Assembly (NCBI RefSeq): GCF_022406875.1
Contig: NZ_CP023018.1
Location: 221,575 to 285,574, forward strand
From: Ectothiorhodosinus mongolicus
Lineage (GTDB): Bacteria; Pseudomonadota; Gammaproteobacteria; Ectothiorhodospirales; Ectothiorhodospiraceae
DNA: 64,000 bases
Reading direction: 5' to 3'
Made by a program: the position numbers and the translations under genes. Under the pieces are notes generated by a model. That model worked only from the letters and a program-made list of their open reading frames with translations. It was not told the origin of the DNA and searched no databases. Of this stretch, positions 8,247-15,081 are shown in pieces. Each line of letters starts with the position of its first letter. The stretch's first letter is position 1.

Positions 8247-9488
8247 ATGAGCACATTATCCGCTGACTACCGCCGCCACCCCACGACCCAGGTCCGCATT
8301 GGCCCGGTCACGGTGGGCAGCGACCACCCCGTCACCATCCAATCGATGACCAACACCGACACCGCGGATGATATTCGTACCGTGGTGCAAGTCGCCGAAC
8401 TGGCGCGCGCCGGCTCAGAACTGGTGCGCATCACCGTTAACACCGAAGAAGCCGCTGCGGCGGTCCCCAAGATCCGCGAAAAACTCGATGCCATGGGCCT
8501 TGATGTGCCGCTGGTCGGGGATTTTCACTTCAATGGCCACAAACTGCTGACCAAATATCCCGAATGCGCCGAGGCGCTGGCCAAACTGCGCATCAACCCG
8601 GGCAATGTCGGCCGCGGCAGCAAACGCGATACCCAGTTTGCGCAAATGATCGAGATCGCCTGCCGTTACGATAAACCCATTCGCATTGGCGTCAATTGGG
8701 GCAGCCTGGATCAAGAGCTTCTGGCGCGCATGATGGATGAGAACGCCCAGAACTCCGAGCCACTTACCGCCGACGCGGTGAATCAAGAGGCTCTGATCCA
8801 ATCGGCCCTCGGCAGCGCCGCCCGCGCCGAAGAGATCGGTTTGCCGCATGACCGCATCATTATCTCCTGTAAGGTCAGCGGCGTGCAGCCCCTGATTCGC
8901 GTCTACACCGAACTGGCGCGCCGCTGTGACTACCCGCTGCACTTGGGACTCACCGAGGCCGGCATGGGCGTCAAAGGCATCGTGTCCTCAACCGCCGCCC
9001 TGTCCGTGCTGCTGCAGCAAGGCATTGGCGACACCATCCGCATCTCACTGACCCCGGAACCCGGCGCCTCGCGCACTCAAGAGGTCATCGTCGCCCAAGA
9101 AATCCTGCAAAGCCTCGATGTACGCCGCTTTGCCCCCGCAGTGGTCGCCTGCCCCGGCTGTGGCCGCACCTCCAGCGACTACTTCCAACATCTGGCGCAA
9201 GACATCCAAACGTACATCCGCCACAAAATGCCGGAATGGGCCGAGCAATATCCGGGCGTTGAGGATATGACCGTGGCGGTCATGGGCTGCGTGGTCAACG
9301 GCCCCGGCGAGAGCAAACACGCCAATATCGGCATCAGCCTGCCCGGTACTGGCGAACAACCCGTCGCTCCGGTCTATGAAGATGGCGAGAAAACCGTGAC
9401 TCTCAAGGGCGACCAGATCGCCGAGGAATTCCAAGCCATGGTCGAGCGCTACATCGAGCGCACCTACGGCCAAGCCAAAGCTTCTTAG
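8247..9488 (+). CDS. ispG: 4-hydroxy-3-methylbut-2-enyl diphosphate synthase IspG (GcpE)
   Basis: Iron-sulfur enzyme of the MEP isoprenoid pathway that reduces MEcPP to HMBPP. The [4Fe-4S] ligands are visible as C302 and C305 (C-P-G-C-G-R-T), C348 and E355 (G-C-V-V-N-G-P-G-E). The N-terminal TIM-barrel part has the I-Q-S-M-T-N-T-D-T motif and R-I-N-P-G-N-V-G. At 413 aa it is about 40 residues longer than the E. coli enzyme, mainly in the segment around 150-200 (W-G-S-L-D and following). It is divergent from the SRP RNA gene and followed by tRNA-Val. Confidence 0.96.
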
Positions 9489-9499
9489 CCGCCAAAACA

Positions 9500-9528
9500 T
9501 TGACCCTTTGGGGTCAGATGCCTATACT
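9500..9528 (+). promoter_or_regulatory. Sigma-70 promoter for tRNA-Val (and probably the kdn operon)
   Basis: TTGACC (9500-9505), 17-bp spacer, TATACT (9523-9528), followed by a G+C-rich discriminator CGCGGCTC typical of stringently controlled stable-RNA promoters. The spacer contains a short palindrome, GACCC-TTTG-GGGTC. It sits 12 bp after the ispG stop. Confidence 0.75.
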
Positions 9529-9544
9529 CGCGGCTCTTGAGCTT

Positions 9545-9619
9545 GGGCGGTTAGCTCAGTGGTAGAGCACTGCCTTCACACGGCAGGGGTCACTAGTTCG
9601 AACCTAGTACCGCCCACCA
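9545..9619 (+). tRNA. tRNA-Val (anticodon CAC)
   Basis: 75-nt cloverleaf. The acceptor GGGCGGT (9545-9551) pairs with ACCGCCC (9609-9615), and CCA is encoded at 9617-9619. The D-arm has TAGCTCAGTGGTAGAGC, the anticodon loop TTCACAC has CAC at 577-579 of the 9-kb block (9577-9579), and the T-arm has GTTCGAAC. It reads GUG codons. Confidence 0.95.
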
Positions 9620-9644
9620 TTTTCCTTCAGATTTAAGGTGATAC

Positions 9645-10832
9645 ATGCCCGGCTTTGAGTGGTTTGGTTCAGAAGAGAGAGCCGAGGCGCTCGAGGTCCT
9701 CGATCACGGCGTGCTCATGCGCTATGGTTTTGATGGCCAGCGCCAAGGCAAGTGGAAGGCTTTGGAATTTGAGAAAGCCCTGGCCGATCGCATGCAACTG
9801 CCCTACGCCCATGTCTGCTCCAGCGGCACCACCGCCGTTTTCACCGCTATGGCCTGCGCCGGAATTGGTGCTGGCGACGAGGTCATCGTCCCGCCCTTCA
9901 CTTTTGTGGCGGATATCGAGGGCGCGCTCTATGCCGGCGCCATCCCAGTCTATTCCGAAATCGATGAGACCCTGAACCTCGACCCCAATAAACTGGAAGA
10001 GAAAATTACCGAGCGCACCAAAGCTGTGCTGCTGGTGCATATGTGCGGCTCTATGGCCCACGTAGCTCAGATCCGTGATATTTGCGCCAAGCACAATCTC
10101 ATTCTGATTGAAGACGTGGCGCAAGCCATCGGCGCCTCTTATCAAGGCCAAATGCTCGGCAGCTTCGGACTATGCGGCTGTTTCTCCTTTGACTACGTCA
10201 AGACCATCACCTGCGGTGAAGGCGGCGGCATCGTCAGCTCTGATAAAGACTTCTACGACCGCTGCCAGGCATTCACCGATCATGGCCACGACCATCTAGG
10301 CGCAGATCGCGGCGCCGATAAACACCCGATCATGGGCTTTAACTTTCGCATTGGCGAGCTCAACGCCGCCATTGGTTTGGCCCAGCTGCGCAAACTTGAT
10401 GACATCATTGCCCGCAACCGGCGCAACAAAGCCCTGATTAAGGATCAGCTCAGAGATATCCCCGGCCTGCGCCTGCGTGACGTGCCGGATCCTGAGGGTG
10501 ATTCCGCCACGTTCTTAAGCTTTATCCTGCCGGATGAGCCCACAGCCCTGCGCGCCCGCAAAGAGCTGGGCGAAGCGGGCGTTGATGGCTGCCTGCACTG
10601 GTACTCCAACAACTGGCACTACTACCGTAGCTGGGATCATTTCGCCGAGCTCAAAAGCCCCAACCCGCTATACCAGACCATGTCCGATGACTTCCGCAAG
10701 CCAAACTTGCCCCAATCTGACGCCATTATGGCTGGCACCCTATCGATGCTGATTAAGCTCTCTTGGGATGAAGGCGAATGCATTGAGCGCGGCCGGAAAA
10801 TGCGCGAAGTGCTGATGAGCGTGTTGAGCTAA
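9645..10832 (+). CDS. kdnA: 8-amino-3,8-dideoxy-Kdo aminotransferase KdnA (DegT/DnrJ family)
   Basis: PLP enzyme of the DegT/DnrJ/EryC1/StrS fold, predicted to transaminate 8-oxo-Kdo to Kdo8N. The PLP lysine is K186 in S-F-D-Y-V-K-T-I, followed by the family's G-E-G-G-G. Other hallmarks are S-S-G-T-T-A at 59-64, I-E-D-V-A-Q-A-I-G near 155-163, and N-F-R-I-G-E-L-N-A-A-I-G. The length of 395 aa is normal. A good ribosome site AAGGTG lies 5 bp before the ATG. The specific call comes from the operon: kdsB and a KdnB-type dehydrogenase follow within 5 and 8 bp, the set characterised in Shewanella oneidensis. Taken alone it would only be a DegT-family sugar aminotransferase. Confidence 0.88.
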   Translation: MPGFEWFGSEERAEALEVLDHGVLMRYGFDGQRQGKWKALEFEKALADRMQLPYAHVCSSGTTAVFTAMACAGIGAGDEVIVPPFTFVADIEGALYAGAIPVYSEIDETLNLDPNKLEEKITERTKAVLLVHMCGSMAHVAQIRDICAKHNLILIEDVAQAIGASYQGQMLGSFGLCGCFSFDYVKTITCGEGGGIVSSDKDFYDRCQAFTDHGHDHLGADRGADKHPIMGFNFRIGELNAAIGLAQLRKLDDIIARNRRNKALIKDQLRDIPGLRLRDVPDPEGDSATFLSFILPDEPTALRARKELGEAGVDGCLHWYSNNWHYYRSWDHFAELKSPNPLYQTMSDDFRKPNLPQSDAIMAGTLSMLIKLSWDEGECIERGRKMREVLMSVLS

Positions 10833-10837
10833 GCCTC

Positions 10838-11599
10838 ATGCATACGGCGATCATCGTCCCGGCGCGCCTGGGCTCCACCCGCTTTCCCCAAAAACTGCTG
10901 CACCCCGTGCGCGGTAAACCCGTTTTGCTGTGGACCGCTGAACAAATCCGTCGCGAAGCCCCAGAGTTTGATTTGTGGTTTGCCGTTGATAGCGAACGCC
11001 TGAAAAATCTTTTAGAGGCCGAAGGCTACCGCGCTGTCATCACTGATCCAGAGCTACCCAGCGGAACCGATCGCATTGCCGCGGCCAATGAACAAATCGG
11101 CGCCGCACGCATCATCAATGTGCAAGCCGATGAGCCCATGGTGACAGGCGAACAAATCCGCTTACTGGATAAAATTCTTACCCCCGGCGTGGATATGGCG
11201 ACCTTAGGCTTTCCGCTGACCACCGACCGCGATTACCACAACCCCAACCACGTCAAAATGGTCTGCGCGCAAGACGGCGCAGCACTTTACTTCTCGCGCT
11301 CGCCCATTCCGTATGTGCGTGAGACGGTGGGGCGTTATGACGCCGATCTCACCGGCCCCGAGGGGGTTTTGATTCATGTGGGCTTGTTTGCCTACACCCA
11401 AGAATTTCTCGCCACTTTTGCCAAGCTGCCGATGAGCCACTTAGAGCGCCTTGAGAAACTAGAAATGCTGCGCGCTCTGGAACATGGCTATCGTATTGCC
11501 ACCGCCGTCACCCATGATACGCTGATCGAAATTGACACTCCTGAGAACATCATTCAGTTTGAAGAAGCCGTCACCGAACACTTTAATCCCGAGTATTAA
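10838..11599 (+). CDS. kdsB: CMP-Kdo / CMP-Kdo8N cytidylyltransferase KdsB
   Basis: Activates Kdo-type sugars with CTP for transfer to lipid A. The N-terminal nucleotide-binding motif P-A-R-L-G-S-T-R-F-P-x-K-L-L is at residues 8-21, with V-Q-A-D-E-P in the middle and Y-F-S-R-S-P-I-P-Y and H-x-G-L-F-A-Y in the second half. The length of 253 aa is standard. It is placed between kdnA and kdnB with a 5-bp gap upstream and 8 bp downstream, so the amino-sugar Kdo8N is its probable substrate. Whether plain Kdo is also used cannot be told from sequence. Confidence 0.93.
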   Translation: MHTAIIVPARLGSTRFPQKLLHPVRGKPVLLWTAEQIRREAPEFDLWFAVDSERLKNLLEAEGYRAVITDPELPSGTDRIAAANEQIGAARIINVQADEPMVTGEQIRLLDKILTPGVDMATLGFPLTTDRDYHNPNHVKMVCAQDGAALYFSRSPIPYVRETVGRYDADLTGPEGVLIHVGLFAYTQEFLATFAKLPMSHLERLEKLEMLRALEHGYRIATAVTHDTLIEIDTPENIIQFEEAVTEHFNPEY

Positions 11600-11607
11600 T
11601 CGCCCCT

Positions 11608-12675
11608 ATGTATAAGAATCTCCGCGTTGTTCCGCACATGGTCTTTGGCCGCGGCAGTTTCAATCAGCTGGATGACATCCTGCGCGCCTACCGCACCGAC
11701 GAAGGCTCGCATGTGGTCTACCTCATCGACGCTATCCATGAGCATCGCCCGCTGATTCACCGAGTGCCCATTCATAAAAACGACCTGATTATTCTCGTTA
11801 ATGTCGATACCGAACCCAAAACCAGTTATGTCGATGAACTGGTACAACGCGTCAATGAATATTCCAATCGCCCACCGGATGCCATCATCGGCTTGGGTGG
11901 TGGTAGTACTCTGGACTTGGCTAAAGCGGTGGCATTGATGCTTACCAATCCCGGCTCTGCGGCCGACTATCAGGGCTGGGATCTGGTGAAAAACCCCGGC
12001 ATTACCCACATCGGCATCCCCACCCTCGCCGGCACTGGCGCAGAAATCTCCCGCACGACCGTGCTCACTGGCCCCACCCGCAAGCTCGGCATCAACTCCG
12101 ACTTCACCCCCTTCGATCAAATCATCATGGATGCGGAATTGGTTGAGGGTGTGCCCACCGATCAGTGGTTTTATACCGGCATGGACTGTTACATCCACAA
12201 TGCCGAAGCACTGGCAGGATCCTTCATCAACACCTTCGCCCAGGCCTATGCTGAGAAGTCCTTGGATCTGTGCCGCGATGTCTACTTGGGTGATGACCCC
12301 GAGGCTGACGACAAACTCATGGTGGCGTCCTATTTTGGCGGCATGAGCATCGCCTACTCACAGGTGGGTGTGGCCCATGCGCTGAGCTATGGATTGTCCT
12401 TCTTGTTGGGCACCCGTCATGGCGTGGGCAACTGCATCGTCTTTGATCAGCTGGATGACTACTACGGCCCCTATGTCGAAGAGTTTCGTCGCATGATGGA
12501 CAAGCACAATATCCAGCTGCCCCGTGGCGTCACCAAAGACGTCGATGAAGCGGGCATGGAGAAGATGATCGATGTCGCCCTGGGTCTTGAACCTTTGTGG
12601 CAAAACGCTCTAGGACCTGACTGGAAATCCATCATGACCCGCGAGAAAGTGCGCGCCCTGTACGAGCGTATGTAA
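11608..12675 (+). CDS. kdnB: Kdo 8-dehydrogenase KdnB (iron-dependent alcohol dehydrogenase family)
   Basis: Predicted to oxidise C8 of free Kdo to the aldehyde used by KdnA. It is a group III metal-dependent alcohol dehydrogenase: NAD-binding G-L-G-G-G-S-T-L-D (95-103), A-G-T-G-A-E-I-S (141-148), and metal ligands D193, H197, H257 and H271. The length is 355 aa. It is the third gene of the operon, with an 8-bp gap to kdsB. No clear terminator follows before the convergent DUF2442 gene 45 bp away. Family membership is certain, and the Kdo substrate is inferred from the operon. Confidence 0.88.
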   Translation: MYKNLRVVPHMVFGRGSFNQLDDILRAYRTDEGSHVVYLIDAIHEHRPLIHRVPIHKNDLIILVNVDTEPKTSYVDELVQRVNEYSNRPPDAIIGLGGGSTLDLAKAVALMLTNPGSAADYQGWDLVKNPGITHIGIPTLAGTGAEISRTTVLTGPTRKLGINSDFTPFDQIIMDAELVEGVPTDQWFYTGMDCYIHNAEALAGSFINTFAQAYAEKSLDLCRDVYLGDDPEADDKLMVASYFGGMSIAYSQVGVAHALSYGLSFLLGTRHGVGNCIVFDQLDDYYGPYVEEFRRMMDKHNIQLPRGVTKDVDEAGMEKMIDVALGLEPLWQNALGPDWKSIMTREKVRALYERM

Positions 12676-12720
12676 CCTCACCCCGCATCCCCGGAGTTTG
12701 CGTTCCCAAAGCTATTGGAG

Positions 12721-12987
12721 CTAGACGGTCTTCGCGACTTTCGGGAAGCGCTCCGGGTTCTCGATGATATCGCGAGTAAGATCCACATCAATATCCGGCC
12801 AATAAAAATGGTCAGGAGATACCTCCTGCACATTTAATATGGCCTTGACCGGCTGATCCTTAAACCATGGAAACGCCTCATAGGACATGAACATTTCATG
12901 ATCATGCGCGAGCAGCCATACCCCATGACTCGATATATGAGTCACTTCAACCGCCGAAGCAGCTTTTCCATGCGTCGATAAGCTCAA
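12721..12987 (-). CDS. DUF2442-domain protein
   Basis: Small protein with the DUF2442 pattern: a H-E-M-F-M-S-Y-E-x-F-P-W-F segment, then V-x-P-D-H-F-Y-W-P-D-I-D-V-D-L. The start is uncertain. A TTG at 12987 has GAGGAG 7 bp upstream, and a TTG at 13002 is also in frame. Either way it overlaps the DUF4160 gene, so the pair is translationally coupled. DUF4160/DUF2442 pairs are widespread and often treated as candidate toxin-antitoxin modules, but no activity can be claimed here. Confidence 0.8.
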   Translation of the reverse strand: MSLSTHGKAASAVEVTHISSHGVWLLAHDHEMFMSYEAFPWFKDQPVKAILNVQEVSPDHFYWPDIDVDLTRDIIENPERFPKVAKTV

Positions 12988-13186
12988 GGTGGCGCTCCTC
13001 AATCAGTGACTGAATTTCTCTAATCTGCCTTTGATTGTAATGATAGCTCTTTTCTAGCTGAAGCACTGGCTCTAACCAGAATTTAGCCTCTCCATCCCCA
13101 GAGACTACATGCACGTGCATTCTTGACTCTTCGCGGGAGAAAAAGAAAAAACGATAGCCTCGCTCTCTAAAAATTGTTGGTGTCAT
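12947..13186 (-). CDS. DUF4160-domain protein
   Basis: 79-residue protein beginning M-T-P-T-I-F-R-E-R-G-Y-R-F-F-F-F-S, followed by H-V-H-V-x-x-G-x-G-E-A-K-F-W-L-E-P, which is the DUF4160 signature. A C-terminal helix carries I-E-E-R-H-L-E-L-I-D-A-W. It is first in a two-gene unit with DUF2442. Its role is unknown; it may be the toxin-like partner of a TA-like module. The coding ends overlap by about 40 bp. Confidence 0.83.
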   Translation of the reverse strand: MTPTIFRERGYRFFFFSREESRMHVHVVSGDGEAKFWLEPVLQLEKSYHYNQRQIREIQSLIEERHLELIDAWKSCFGG

Positions 13187-13211
13187 TGGAGACTTCCTTG
13201 TCGTTGTGAAC

Positions 13212-13835
13212 TCAAATTAGCGACTTGAATAAGCAGAAGTTGAAGTTTTGGACTGCGCCGGCGGGCGTCATGTGCTCCACTGCGGCGTGCTTGATGATGC
13301 TAAATCCTTGCCCCAGTGTTTCCTGCAGGCTTTCCGGGCCATAGCGCACCACCGGCAACCCACTGCAGCGCTCCGGTCCATCCAGCGCGAAGGTGGCCAT
13401 CAACACCCATCCACCGGGGCGCAGTGACCGCATCAAACGTTGAACATACGCCTCGCGGTGCGCCGCCTCCGTGAGGAAATGGAATACGGCCCGATCATGC
13501 CAAAGATCAAAGCGATCATTGGGTAATTCGGCTTGCGTGATATCTTCAACTCGCCACTCCACAGCGTCGGCCGCCGCGTCCAGTCGGTTACGTGACTGCT
13601 GCAACGCTTGCTCGGAAATATCCAACACGGTCAGATCGGTAAAACCGGCCGCTACTAGCTCATCAATCAGAGTCGACATCCCGCCCCCGACATCGATGAT
13701 GCCGGCCTCAGAAGGCAAAGCCAGCCCCTGAATCCATTCTAAGGACAGCCCCCCACCTTGCTGATACCAGCTCAAAGACTCACCAGGCCGCGTGCCGTAA
13801 ACAGTCTCCCAATGCGCCTTGTCCGGTGCTGCCAT
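13212..13835 (-). CDS. Class I SAM-dependent methyltransferase
   Basis: Rossmann-fold methyltransferase of 207 aa. Motif I is I-I-D-V-G-G-G-M-S-T near residues 46-55, followed by the acidic end of strand 2 (T-V-L-D-I-S), then D-L-W-H-D-R-A-V-F-H-F and a L-R-P-G-G-W-V-L strand. This resembles the small-molecule or thiopurine-like methyltransferases often annotated only as class I. The ATG at 13835 has GGGAGG 7 bp upstream and is preferred over a TTG at 13853. The substrate is unknown. It is divergent from the ETHE1-like gene, which could hint at sulfur or detoxification chemistry, but that is speculation. Confidence 0.85.
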   Translation of the reverse strand: MAAPDKAHWETVYGTRPGESLSWYQQGGGLSLEWIQGLALPSEAGIIDVGGGMSTLIDELVAAGFTDLTVLDISEQALQQSRNRLDAAADAVEWRVEDITQAELPNDRFDLWHDRAVFHFLTEAAHREAYVQRLMRSLRPGGWVLMATFALDGPERCSGLPVVRYGPESLQETLGQGFSIIKHAAVEHMTPAGAVQNFNFCLFKSLI

Positions 13836-13961: not shown

Positions 13962-14714
13962 ATGCTTTTTCGACAATTGTACGAACCCGATTCTTCCACT
14001 TTCACCTACTTGCTGTCTTGTCCGGACACGGGCGTTACCGCTCTGATCGACCCGGTGCTGGAGACGGTGGAGCGGGACCTGGAAGTGCTGCAGTCGATGG
14101 GGCTCAAGCTGGACTATGCCATCGAAACTCATATCCACGCCGACCACATCACTGGCGCCAAAAAGCTGAAAAACGCCACCGGCTGTCAAATCGCTGGACC
14201 CGCACAGGATGAGCTACCCTGCCGTGATATTGGCCTGACCGAAGGCGCAGCTTTTCAGATCGGCGGCATCACGCTCAACCCTCTGTTTACGCCTGGACAT
14301 ACCGACACGCATCACGCCTATCTGCTGGATCATCATGGCATGCCGATGCTGTTCTCCGGCGATGCCCTGCTGATCGAGGCCTGCGGGCGCACGGATTTCC
14401 AATCGGGCGATGCGCATGTGCTCTACCGGAGCATCCACAACAAGTTCTTTCGCTTACCGGACGAGACCTTGGTCTATCCGGCGCATGACTACGAAGATCG
14501 CCGCATCACCACTATCGGGCAGGAAAAACTGCGCAACCCGCGTCTCGGTAAGAACCGCAGTGAAGAGGAATTTGTGGCGATCATGAACGGGCTTGATCTG
14601 CCCTACCCCCGCAAAATCGACTTCTCGGTGCCGGGCAACGAACTTTGCGGAATGTGTCCGGACAACATGCCCGAAGAGATGAAAGGCTTGTGCAAAGACA
14701 GCCAGCAGCGCTAA
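13962..14714 (+). CDS. ETHE1-like persulfide (sulfur) dioxygenase, MBL fold
   Basis: Mononuclear-iron metallo-beta-lactamase-fold enzyme that oxidises glutathione persulfide to sulfite in sulfide detoxification. The T-H-I-H-A-D-H motif is at 56-62, T-P-G-H-T at 110-114, and S-G-D-A-L-L-I-E-A-C-G-R-T-D-F-Q at 132-147. H57, H113 and D134 correspond to the iron ligands of ETHE1, and A-C-G-R-T-D-F is diagnostic of the persulfide dioxygenase branch. At 250 aa it is of normal length. A C-x-x-C near the C-terminus (L-C-G-M-C) is extra. It is divergent from a methyltransferase, and no rhodanese or sulfide:quinone reductase is nearby. Confidence 0.9.
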   Translation: MLFRQLYEPDSSTFTYLLSCPDTGVTALIDPVLETVERDLEVLQSMGLKLDYAIETHIHADHITGAKKLKNATGCQIAGPAQDELPCRDIGLTEGAAFQIGGITLNPLFTPGHTDTHHAYLLDHHGMPMLFSGDALLIEACGRTDFQSGDAHVLYRSIHNKFFRLPDETLVYPAHDYEDRRITTIGQEKLRNPRLGKNRSEEEFVAIMNGLDLPYPRKIDFSVPGNELCGMCPDNMPEEMKGLCKDSQQR

Positions 14715-14727
14715 ACCCAACAATACG

Positions 14728-15081
14728 TCATGCGGTTTTCAAGTACATATCGATGTGCATGGAGGAGTAAGGGCAAATAACCCCGTTTCTTACGGTTCGC
14801 TCGAGCAATCCAAGATCAGTAAGCACCACAACATCTTGATGCACCCGCTTCACATCACGCCCCACCATGCGAGCCAGTTCACGTATTGATATCTCCCCCT
14901 TACCCTGCGCTGCTCGCACGAGCTCCCATCTTTTTTCTGTCAGTTGAGCGAAGAATTGAGCCGGGGTCTCGAAATTTAGAACCTCGCCCTGATAAGTCTC
15001 TGAATTCGCTAGTTGGCCCGCACGTCGCAAAGCACTTCTCCAATCTGACTCTAAAGTAATAGTGAGATAACGATCAGTCAC
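14728..15081 (-). CDS. HTH antitoxin-like regulator (TumA type)
   Basis: 117-residue DNA-binding protein with a winged helix in its second half. I-S-I-R-E-L-A-R-M-V-G-R-D-V-K-R-V-H-Q-D reads as helix-turn-helix, and T-D-L-G-L-L-E-R-T as the start of the wing. It resembles the HVO_A0114-type regulators that accompany DUF6516/TumE toxins. The start is GTG, overlapping the stop of the upstream toxin remnant (GTGA). The partner toxin is truncated, so this looks like an orphan antitoxin. Confidence 0.75.
   Translation of the reverse strand: MTDRYLTITLESDWRSALRRAGQLANSETYQGEVLNFETPAQFFAQLTEKRWELVRAAQGKGEISIRELARMVGRDVKRVHQDVVVLTDLGLLERTVRNGVICPYSSMHIDMYLKTA

Follow-up and report, generated by a model that had tools for sequence, protein, structure and literature searches.

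Known Kdo8N Systems and the Ectothiorhodosinus mongolicus Locus

Escherichia coli possesses tRNA–mRNA operons, exemplified by thrT-tufB and metY-rimP-nusA, in which translation or transcription genes sit behind a tRNA with no terminator in between. A separate line of work concerns Kdo8N, the 8-amino derivative of the lipopolysaccharide (LPS) inner-core sugar 3-deoxy-D-manno-octulosonic acid (Kdo), whose described pathway in Shewanella oneidensis (Protein Data Bank entries 5k8b and 5k8c) employs KdnB, KdnA, and KdsB. One paper calls Kdo8N a hallmark of Shewanella and prints a C8 signal near 44 ppm for the Kdo8N of that genus (PMC6357163). Here we analyze a 64,000-nucleotide stretch of DNA (the window), positions 221,575–285,574 of the 1,995,095-base, single-contig genome of Ectothiorhodosinus mongolicus, in which the same three enzymes, as judged by homology, are encoded by a compact kdnA-kdsB-kdnB unit beginning 25 bases after tRNA-Val(CAC). 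A further paper describes the organism as a phototroph from Mongolian soda lakes (PMC8877833). The locus places the three Kdo8N genes, including the sole KdsB found, in a distantly related organism that is most likely a purple sulfur bacterium of soda lakes, with KdnA and KdnB from another branch of the family.

The pathway itself is already known; its context, gene order, descent, and sole-copy status set the E. mongolicus locus apart. A single kdn-linked KdsB is shared with Shewanella ANA-3, but Shewanella arranges the genes as kdnA-kdnB-kdsB, and its KdnA and KdnB occupy a different branch. An earlier, sequence-only reading of this DNA, which likened the unit to that of Shewanella, therefore holds for gene content, but neither for gene order nor for descent (p = 7e-8 in the approximately unbiased, or AU, test). 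For comparison we took the 80 loci listed, out of 540 candidates at E 1e-3, from a named collection, plus six loci from the class, giving 86 besides our own. A same-strand tRNA within 1 kb upstream occurs in none of these 86 listed loci, Shewanella included, although L136 and L143 have less than 1 kb of sequence there. Another close counterpart, among the loci listed, is L115, from the Verrucomicrobiales bin H5_VER1, which shares the gene order and whose KdnA and KdnB are 59% and 67% identical to those of E. mongolicus; it differs in having a broken kdsB frame, a further, intact KdsB of full length in the same genome, and a contig on which a search located no tRNA. Searches of the open-licence part of the literature listed no paper describing a tRNA upstream of kdn genes, and none reporting Kdo8N genes from Ectothiorhodospiraceae.

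We consider it the probable explanation that a captured kdn unit behind tRNA-Val is transcribed from the tRNA promoter, that the canonical kdsB has been lost, and that the inner core is mainly or wholly made with Kdo8N. The horizontally acquired kdnA-kdsB-kdnB would have landed directly behind tRNA-Val(CAC), replacing the tRNA terminator, such that the tRNA promoter would produce one tRNA–kdn transcript. The kdn mRNA, bearing its own ribosome site at kdnA, would be released once the 3′-end of the tRNA is matured. Processing of tRNA precursors by RNase E is established in E. coli (PMC3985628). KdnB would oxidize C8 of Kdo and KdnA aminate it, whereupon the linked KdsB would make the cytidine monophosphate (CMP) sugar for use by WaaA. 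The lpxK-ycaR-kdsB copy of kdsB would have disappeared afterwards. With the canonical kdsB gone, the inner core would rely on what the captured unit supplies, and Kdo8N probably stands in for most or all of its Kdo.

Transcription Context of tRNA-Val and kdnA

The tRNA-Val gene (9545–9619, + strand; anticodon CAC, CCA encoded), located by ARAGORN, is preceded by TTGACC-17-TATACT (9500–9528, + strand), which scored 10 of 12 matches in a promoter scan and is followed by a GC-rich CGCGGC. This promoter is the only + strand site with at least 9 of 12 matches in 9200–13300. The region holds two such promoter-like sites in total, and shuffled sequences give a mean of 2.7; because this count is no higher than in shuffles, the promoter call rests not on the scan but on conserved position in relatives. 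In nine congeners, a site with 10–12 matches ends 17–18 bases before the same tRNA, and in E. mongolicus the distance is 16 bases. The −35 hexamer of the tRNA promoter lies within reach of an inverted repeat, TGACCC/GGGTCA (9501–9516), whose 6-base arms match perfectly around a 4-base loop and overlap the hexamer. This repeat may be an operator or a product of chance; by eye, the upstream sequences of the congeners do not share it.

On the 3′ side of the tRNA, E. mongolicus departs from most of its relatives. A tRNA search of 45 genomes, own included, supplied the best 30 loci, own included, and 28 of the 29 relatives' loci entered the comparison, one with only 5 bases beyond the tRNA being excluded. 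When a terminator was defined by folding, as a hairpin of −8 kcal/mol or below plus a T tract within 90 bases 3′ of the tRNA, 24 of 28 relatives possess one after tRNA-Val(CAC), including all nine congeners. The same fold-based scan found none in the 90 bases after the E. mongolicus tRNA; in a control set of 100 stretches of 90 bases, drawn at random from the window, 3 pass. Nor was any + strand terminator-like site found between the tRNA and kdnA. The fold-based scan replaced a stricter one, limited to few mismatches and to loops no longer than 8 bases, that missed bulged hairpins plain by eye; the latter had reported terminators in 15 of 28 relatives, and in E. mongolicus a weak site rich in G-U pairs, inside kdnA, 84 bases past the tRNA.

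With a promoter upstream of the tRNA and no terminator between tRNA and kdnA, the locus has the layout of a tRNA–mRNA operon. It resembles thrT-tufB and metY-rimP-nusA in carrying protein genes behind a tRNA, but differs in its cargo, an imported LPS-sugar unit that would be co-transcribed with the tRNA. The lost terminator together with the kept promoter favors read-through into kdn, without proving it, and the strongest sign that read-through may occur is that the terminator is missing while kdnA begins at +25. Read-through from the tRNA promoter had been suggested by the sequence-only reading; the comparison lends that idea indirect support, in that the terminator of the relatives is absent and kdnA stands in its place.

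Several observations weigh against read-through from the tRNA promoter. Four relatives (G019, G010, G053, and G050, the last with a hairpin of −7.7 kcal/mol) also lack a scored terminator, and the first four bases 3′ of the E. mongolicus tRNA are T. Moreover, ispG ends a mere 56 bases upstream of the tRNA with no + strand terminator found in between, so ispG read-through could contribute. The kdn unit might instead be run by an own promoter of another type, or mainly by ispG read-through, its closeness to the tRNA resulting from genome compaction. The spacing fits compaction, since ispG and the tRNA lie 4.2–6 kb apart in the eight congener stretches that hold both, versus 56 bases here, and the E. 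mongolicus genome is smaller than those of its congeners. An own promoter is likewise compatible with the scans, which covered sigma-70-type promoters. Nevertheless, we regard this alternative as unlikely: the best sigma-70-like site in 9550–9660 has 8 of 12 matches, lies inside the tRNA, and presents a poor second hexamer, TCGAAC, while the tRNA promoter sits between ispG and kdnA regardless of any transcription arriving from ispG, with no terminator before kdnA. The sequence-only reading had likewise seen neither a terminator nor an own promoter before kdnA; the terminator scans agree, and the sigma-70 scans offered no better candidate there than the site inside the tRNA.

Transcription from the tRNA promoter would bring a further consequence. 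If that promoter drives kdn, a single simple rearrangement, in which a terminator was lost, would have linked an inner-core sugar to growth-rate control. In its most far-reaching form, which we offer tentatively, an essential outer-membrane step would be placed under a growth-regulated tRNA promoter, the mRNA of the sole CMP-Kdo synthetase would be freed by tRNA maturation, LPS output would track tRNA and ribosome synthesis, and the LPS would contain Kdo8N only.

The 25-base leader (9620–9644, + strand) bears the ribosome site AAGGTGA shortly 5′ of the kdnA ATG, the good site already remarked upon when the sequence was first read, and no terminator by sequence or by the fold-based scan. Structure in the tRNA–kdnA leader is not significant (z −0.10), and the kdnA start region, when folded alone, competes with the acceptor side of the tRNA. 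No clear ribosome site was seen in the 5-base kdnA–kdsB and 8-base kdsB–kdnB gaps, from which translational coupling of the kdn genes appears likely. These gaps, and the 25-base distance to tRNA-Val, are identical in the open reading frame and ARAGORN coordinates to those first described.

Enzyme Assignments and Pathway Completeness

The identities of KdnA and KdnB can be assigned firmly from sequence homology. KdnA (9645–10832, + strand; 395 residues), predicted to be the Kdo8N-forming aminotransferase of the DegT family (PF01041), matches structure 5k8b best at E 8e-152, the next match being 1e-51. KdnB (11608–12675, + strand; 355 residues), a putative Kdo 8-oxidase that belongs to the iron-containing alcohol dehydrogenases (PF00465), matches 3rf7 (2e-149) and 5k8c (5e-147) over its full length, the next match being 5e-25. 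For both proteins, the Shewanella Kdn structures outscore the next family by at least 100 orders of magnitude. Residue K186 of KdnA, within SFDxVKTIT, is invariant across seven aligned homologues, and we take it to be the lysine that binds pyridoxal phosphate. Between the two genes lies kdsB (10838–11599, + strand; 253 residues), whose product, a predicted CMP-Kdo or CMP-Kdo8N synthetase and a remote member of the KdsB family, clears the TIGR00466 cut-off narrowly (158.7 vs. 155.2 bits). Also present in the genome are KdsA (TIGR01362, 407.5 bits), WaaA (PF04413, 225 bits), and LpxK. A complete Kdo8N module, as originally proposed, is supported by the Kdn and KdsB homologies together with the presence of KdsA and WaaA.

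A Sole KdsB, Probably in Place of the Ancestral Copy

The kdn-linked kdsB is the single TIGR00466 match above cut-off in a search of the E. mongolicus genome. A search for a kdsB elsewhere, proposed at the outset, has thus been carried out: the one other candidate, at 25.9 bits, matches best as PseF, a pseudaminic acid cytidylyltransferase, below the PseF cut-off as well, and was rejected. A TIGR00466 match is present in 57 of 58 genomes, E. mongolicus among them, and passes the cut-off in 52; the KdsBs of the nine congeners score 290–305 bits as compared with 158 in E. mongolicus. In all nine congeners searched, kdsB lies behind lpxK-ycaR. E. mongolicus retains the run of exbB, exbD, msbA, a glycosyltransferase, lpxK, and ycaR, followed by nudF and acs; kdsB alone is gone (names in this run were assigned by eye from translations, except those of LpxK and the WaaA-like protein, which came from searches). 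No remnant of the congeners' kdsB was found in the lpxK block at E 1e-3, the best match being E 2.2.

At E 1e-100, KdnA occurs in 1 of 47 genomes of the family, namely E. mongolicus (a search of the order returned the same 47). A sample of 369 genomes from class Gammaproteobacteria has 7 that carry it, E. mongolicus being one of them. The ancestral kdsB has been lost from its conserved place in lpxK-ycaR-kdsB, and the KdnA and KdnB evidence indicates that the incoming unit is of other descent, the two marks of a xenologous replacement. The simplest history is that the kdn unit was gained and the ancestral kdsB then lost, and an essential function appears to have passed to this unit. Two class members, L101 (G331) and L102 (G089), each possess a linked KdsB and a higher-scoring second KdsB, and may represent an intermediate before ancestral-gene loss.

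Could the kdn unit instead act in making some surface polysaccharide outside the lipid A-core region? A second WaaA-like glycosyltransferase adjoins lpxK, and a PseF-like cytidylyltransferase exists in the genome, both of which would suit such a role. Yet the WaaA-like gene beside lpxK has matches at that place in the KdnA-less congeners G006, G007, and G009 too, and with WaaA in the genome and no further KdsB turned up by the searches, the KdsB of E. mongolicus must feed lipid A. We therefore deem this explanation very improbable.

Descent of KdnA and KdnB

The 87 listed loci differ in gene order: kdnA alone in 37, kdnA-kdnB in 28, kdnA-kdnB-kdsB in 19, kdnA-kdsB-kdnB in 2, and kdsB-kdnA-kdnB in 1. 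At some of the loci genes go unseen because the contig ends, the flank is short, or a score falls under its cut-off. Among the matches listed, kdnA-kdsB-kdnB is confined to E. mongolicus and L115. The same pairing emerges from phylogeny. In a careful tree of KdnA plus KdnB, built from 37 of 48 qualifying rows (11 dropped, seven of them Shewanella), E. mongolicus is sister to L115 among the loci listed, with support of 100/100; the KdnA-only tree was a quick one. Forcing KdnA and KdnB together with Shewanella costs 116.8 log units and is rejected (p-AU 7e-8), showing at the level of sequence that the two proteins descend apart from the Shewanella branch. As L115 is a single 8.3-kb contig from a bin of unusual amino-acid make-up, the donor phylum is only suggested by this pairing.

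Also among the matches listed, bins of Desulfobacterales (L104–L183) frequently carry KdnA, in many cases alongside KdnB. Shewanella KdnB requires molecular oxygen. Given this oxygen need, a different electron acceptor may serve KdnB in strict anaerobes.

Ancestry and Substrate of KdsB

In contrast to KdnA and KdnB, the ancestry of KdsB itself is not settled by the trees. E. mongolicus KdsB is 40–44% identical to the linked KdsBs of Shewanella and 33–36% to those of the congeners, and it falls outside the canonical clade in the trees (99/95, 100/97). When L115 is included (and L107, L139, and L175 are left out), grouping the window protein with the congeners is rejected (p-AU 0.00065), as are grouping it with Shewanella (0.02) and placing it inside the canonical group (0.02). 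Two points count against a linked-type origin. Once the frame-broken L115 row is left out as well, grouping with the congeners is not rejected (p-AU 0.0855), and the window protein sits on a long branch between the canonical and the other linked rows; it joins the linked KdsBs only when that row is included. Furthermore, at 14 signature columns that separate Shewanella and desulfobacterial linked KdsBs from 20 canonical ones, it keeps the canonical residue at 3, has the linked-type residue at 6 (two of them gaps), and neither at 5. At one of these positions, E231, the linked rows have E, and each of the 20 canonical ones has G. The L115 kdsB (L115:5954-6682) is split into two frames, by assembly error or as a pseudogene, in a bin that holds another full-length KdsB.

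These mixed features bear on substrate. KdsB may still take plain Kdo, with KdnA and KdnB converting part of the pool, in which case the LPS would be mixed and the kdsB replacement substrate-neutral. The mixed signature residues and the long branch between canonical and linked KdsBs agree with such a scenario, as does the distribution of kdsB among ten kdn genomes. Three have a linked KdsB only (E. mongolicus, G413, which is Shewanella ANA-3, and G414), and three have a linked and another KdsB (G089, G331, and G412, the linked one being frame-broken in G412). In the remaining four, all drafts (G083, G098, G231, and G334), the sole KdsB lies off the kdnA contig, although adjacency across a gap is possible; a linked KdsB is hence not needed for the pathway. 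Plain-Kdo use is nonetheless somewhat doubtful in our estimation. The kdsB gene is encoded between kdnA and kdnB, the gain of kdn accompanies the loss of the canonical kdsB, and the KdsB of Shewanella reportedly fits use of Kdo8N. The E. mongolicus locus constitutes a natural test of KdsB specificity, as each of the nine congeners searched still has the enzyme that was replaced.

Genomic Neighborhood

Between the tRNA and uvrB, E. mongolicus carries the kdn unit, a DUF2442/DUF4160 pair, a methyltransferase, a metallo-beta-lactamase-fold protein, and an HVO_A0114-family protein. When the Kdn proteins and the three that come after the DUF pair were searched against 11 stretches, none of them gave a match at E 1e-8. 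Beyond the tRNA, uvrB is convergent, as it is in two of eight congener stretches (G001 and G008). A foreign base composition was considered and rejected, as the kdn genes, at 55–57% G+C vs. 56.5% for the window, are not distinct by composition. Integrase-type insertion at the tRNA was likewise discarded: in a scan covering the window, the 3′-terminal bases of the tRNA have no second copy with up to three mismatches.

DUF4160/DUF2442 pairs often accompany mobile cargo. Here, a DUF4160 gene followed by a DUF2442 gene (12724–13186, − strand) is convergent with kdnB and, at 47% G+C, falls below its surroundings. Further along, the HVO_A0114-family protein (PF25212; 117 residues; 14728–15081, − strand) adjoins a glyoxalase II-like metallo-hydrolase (13962–14714).

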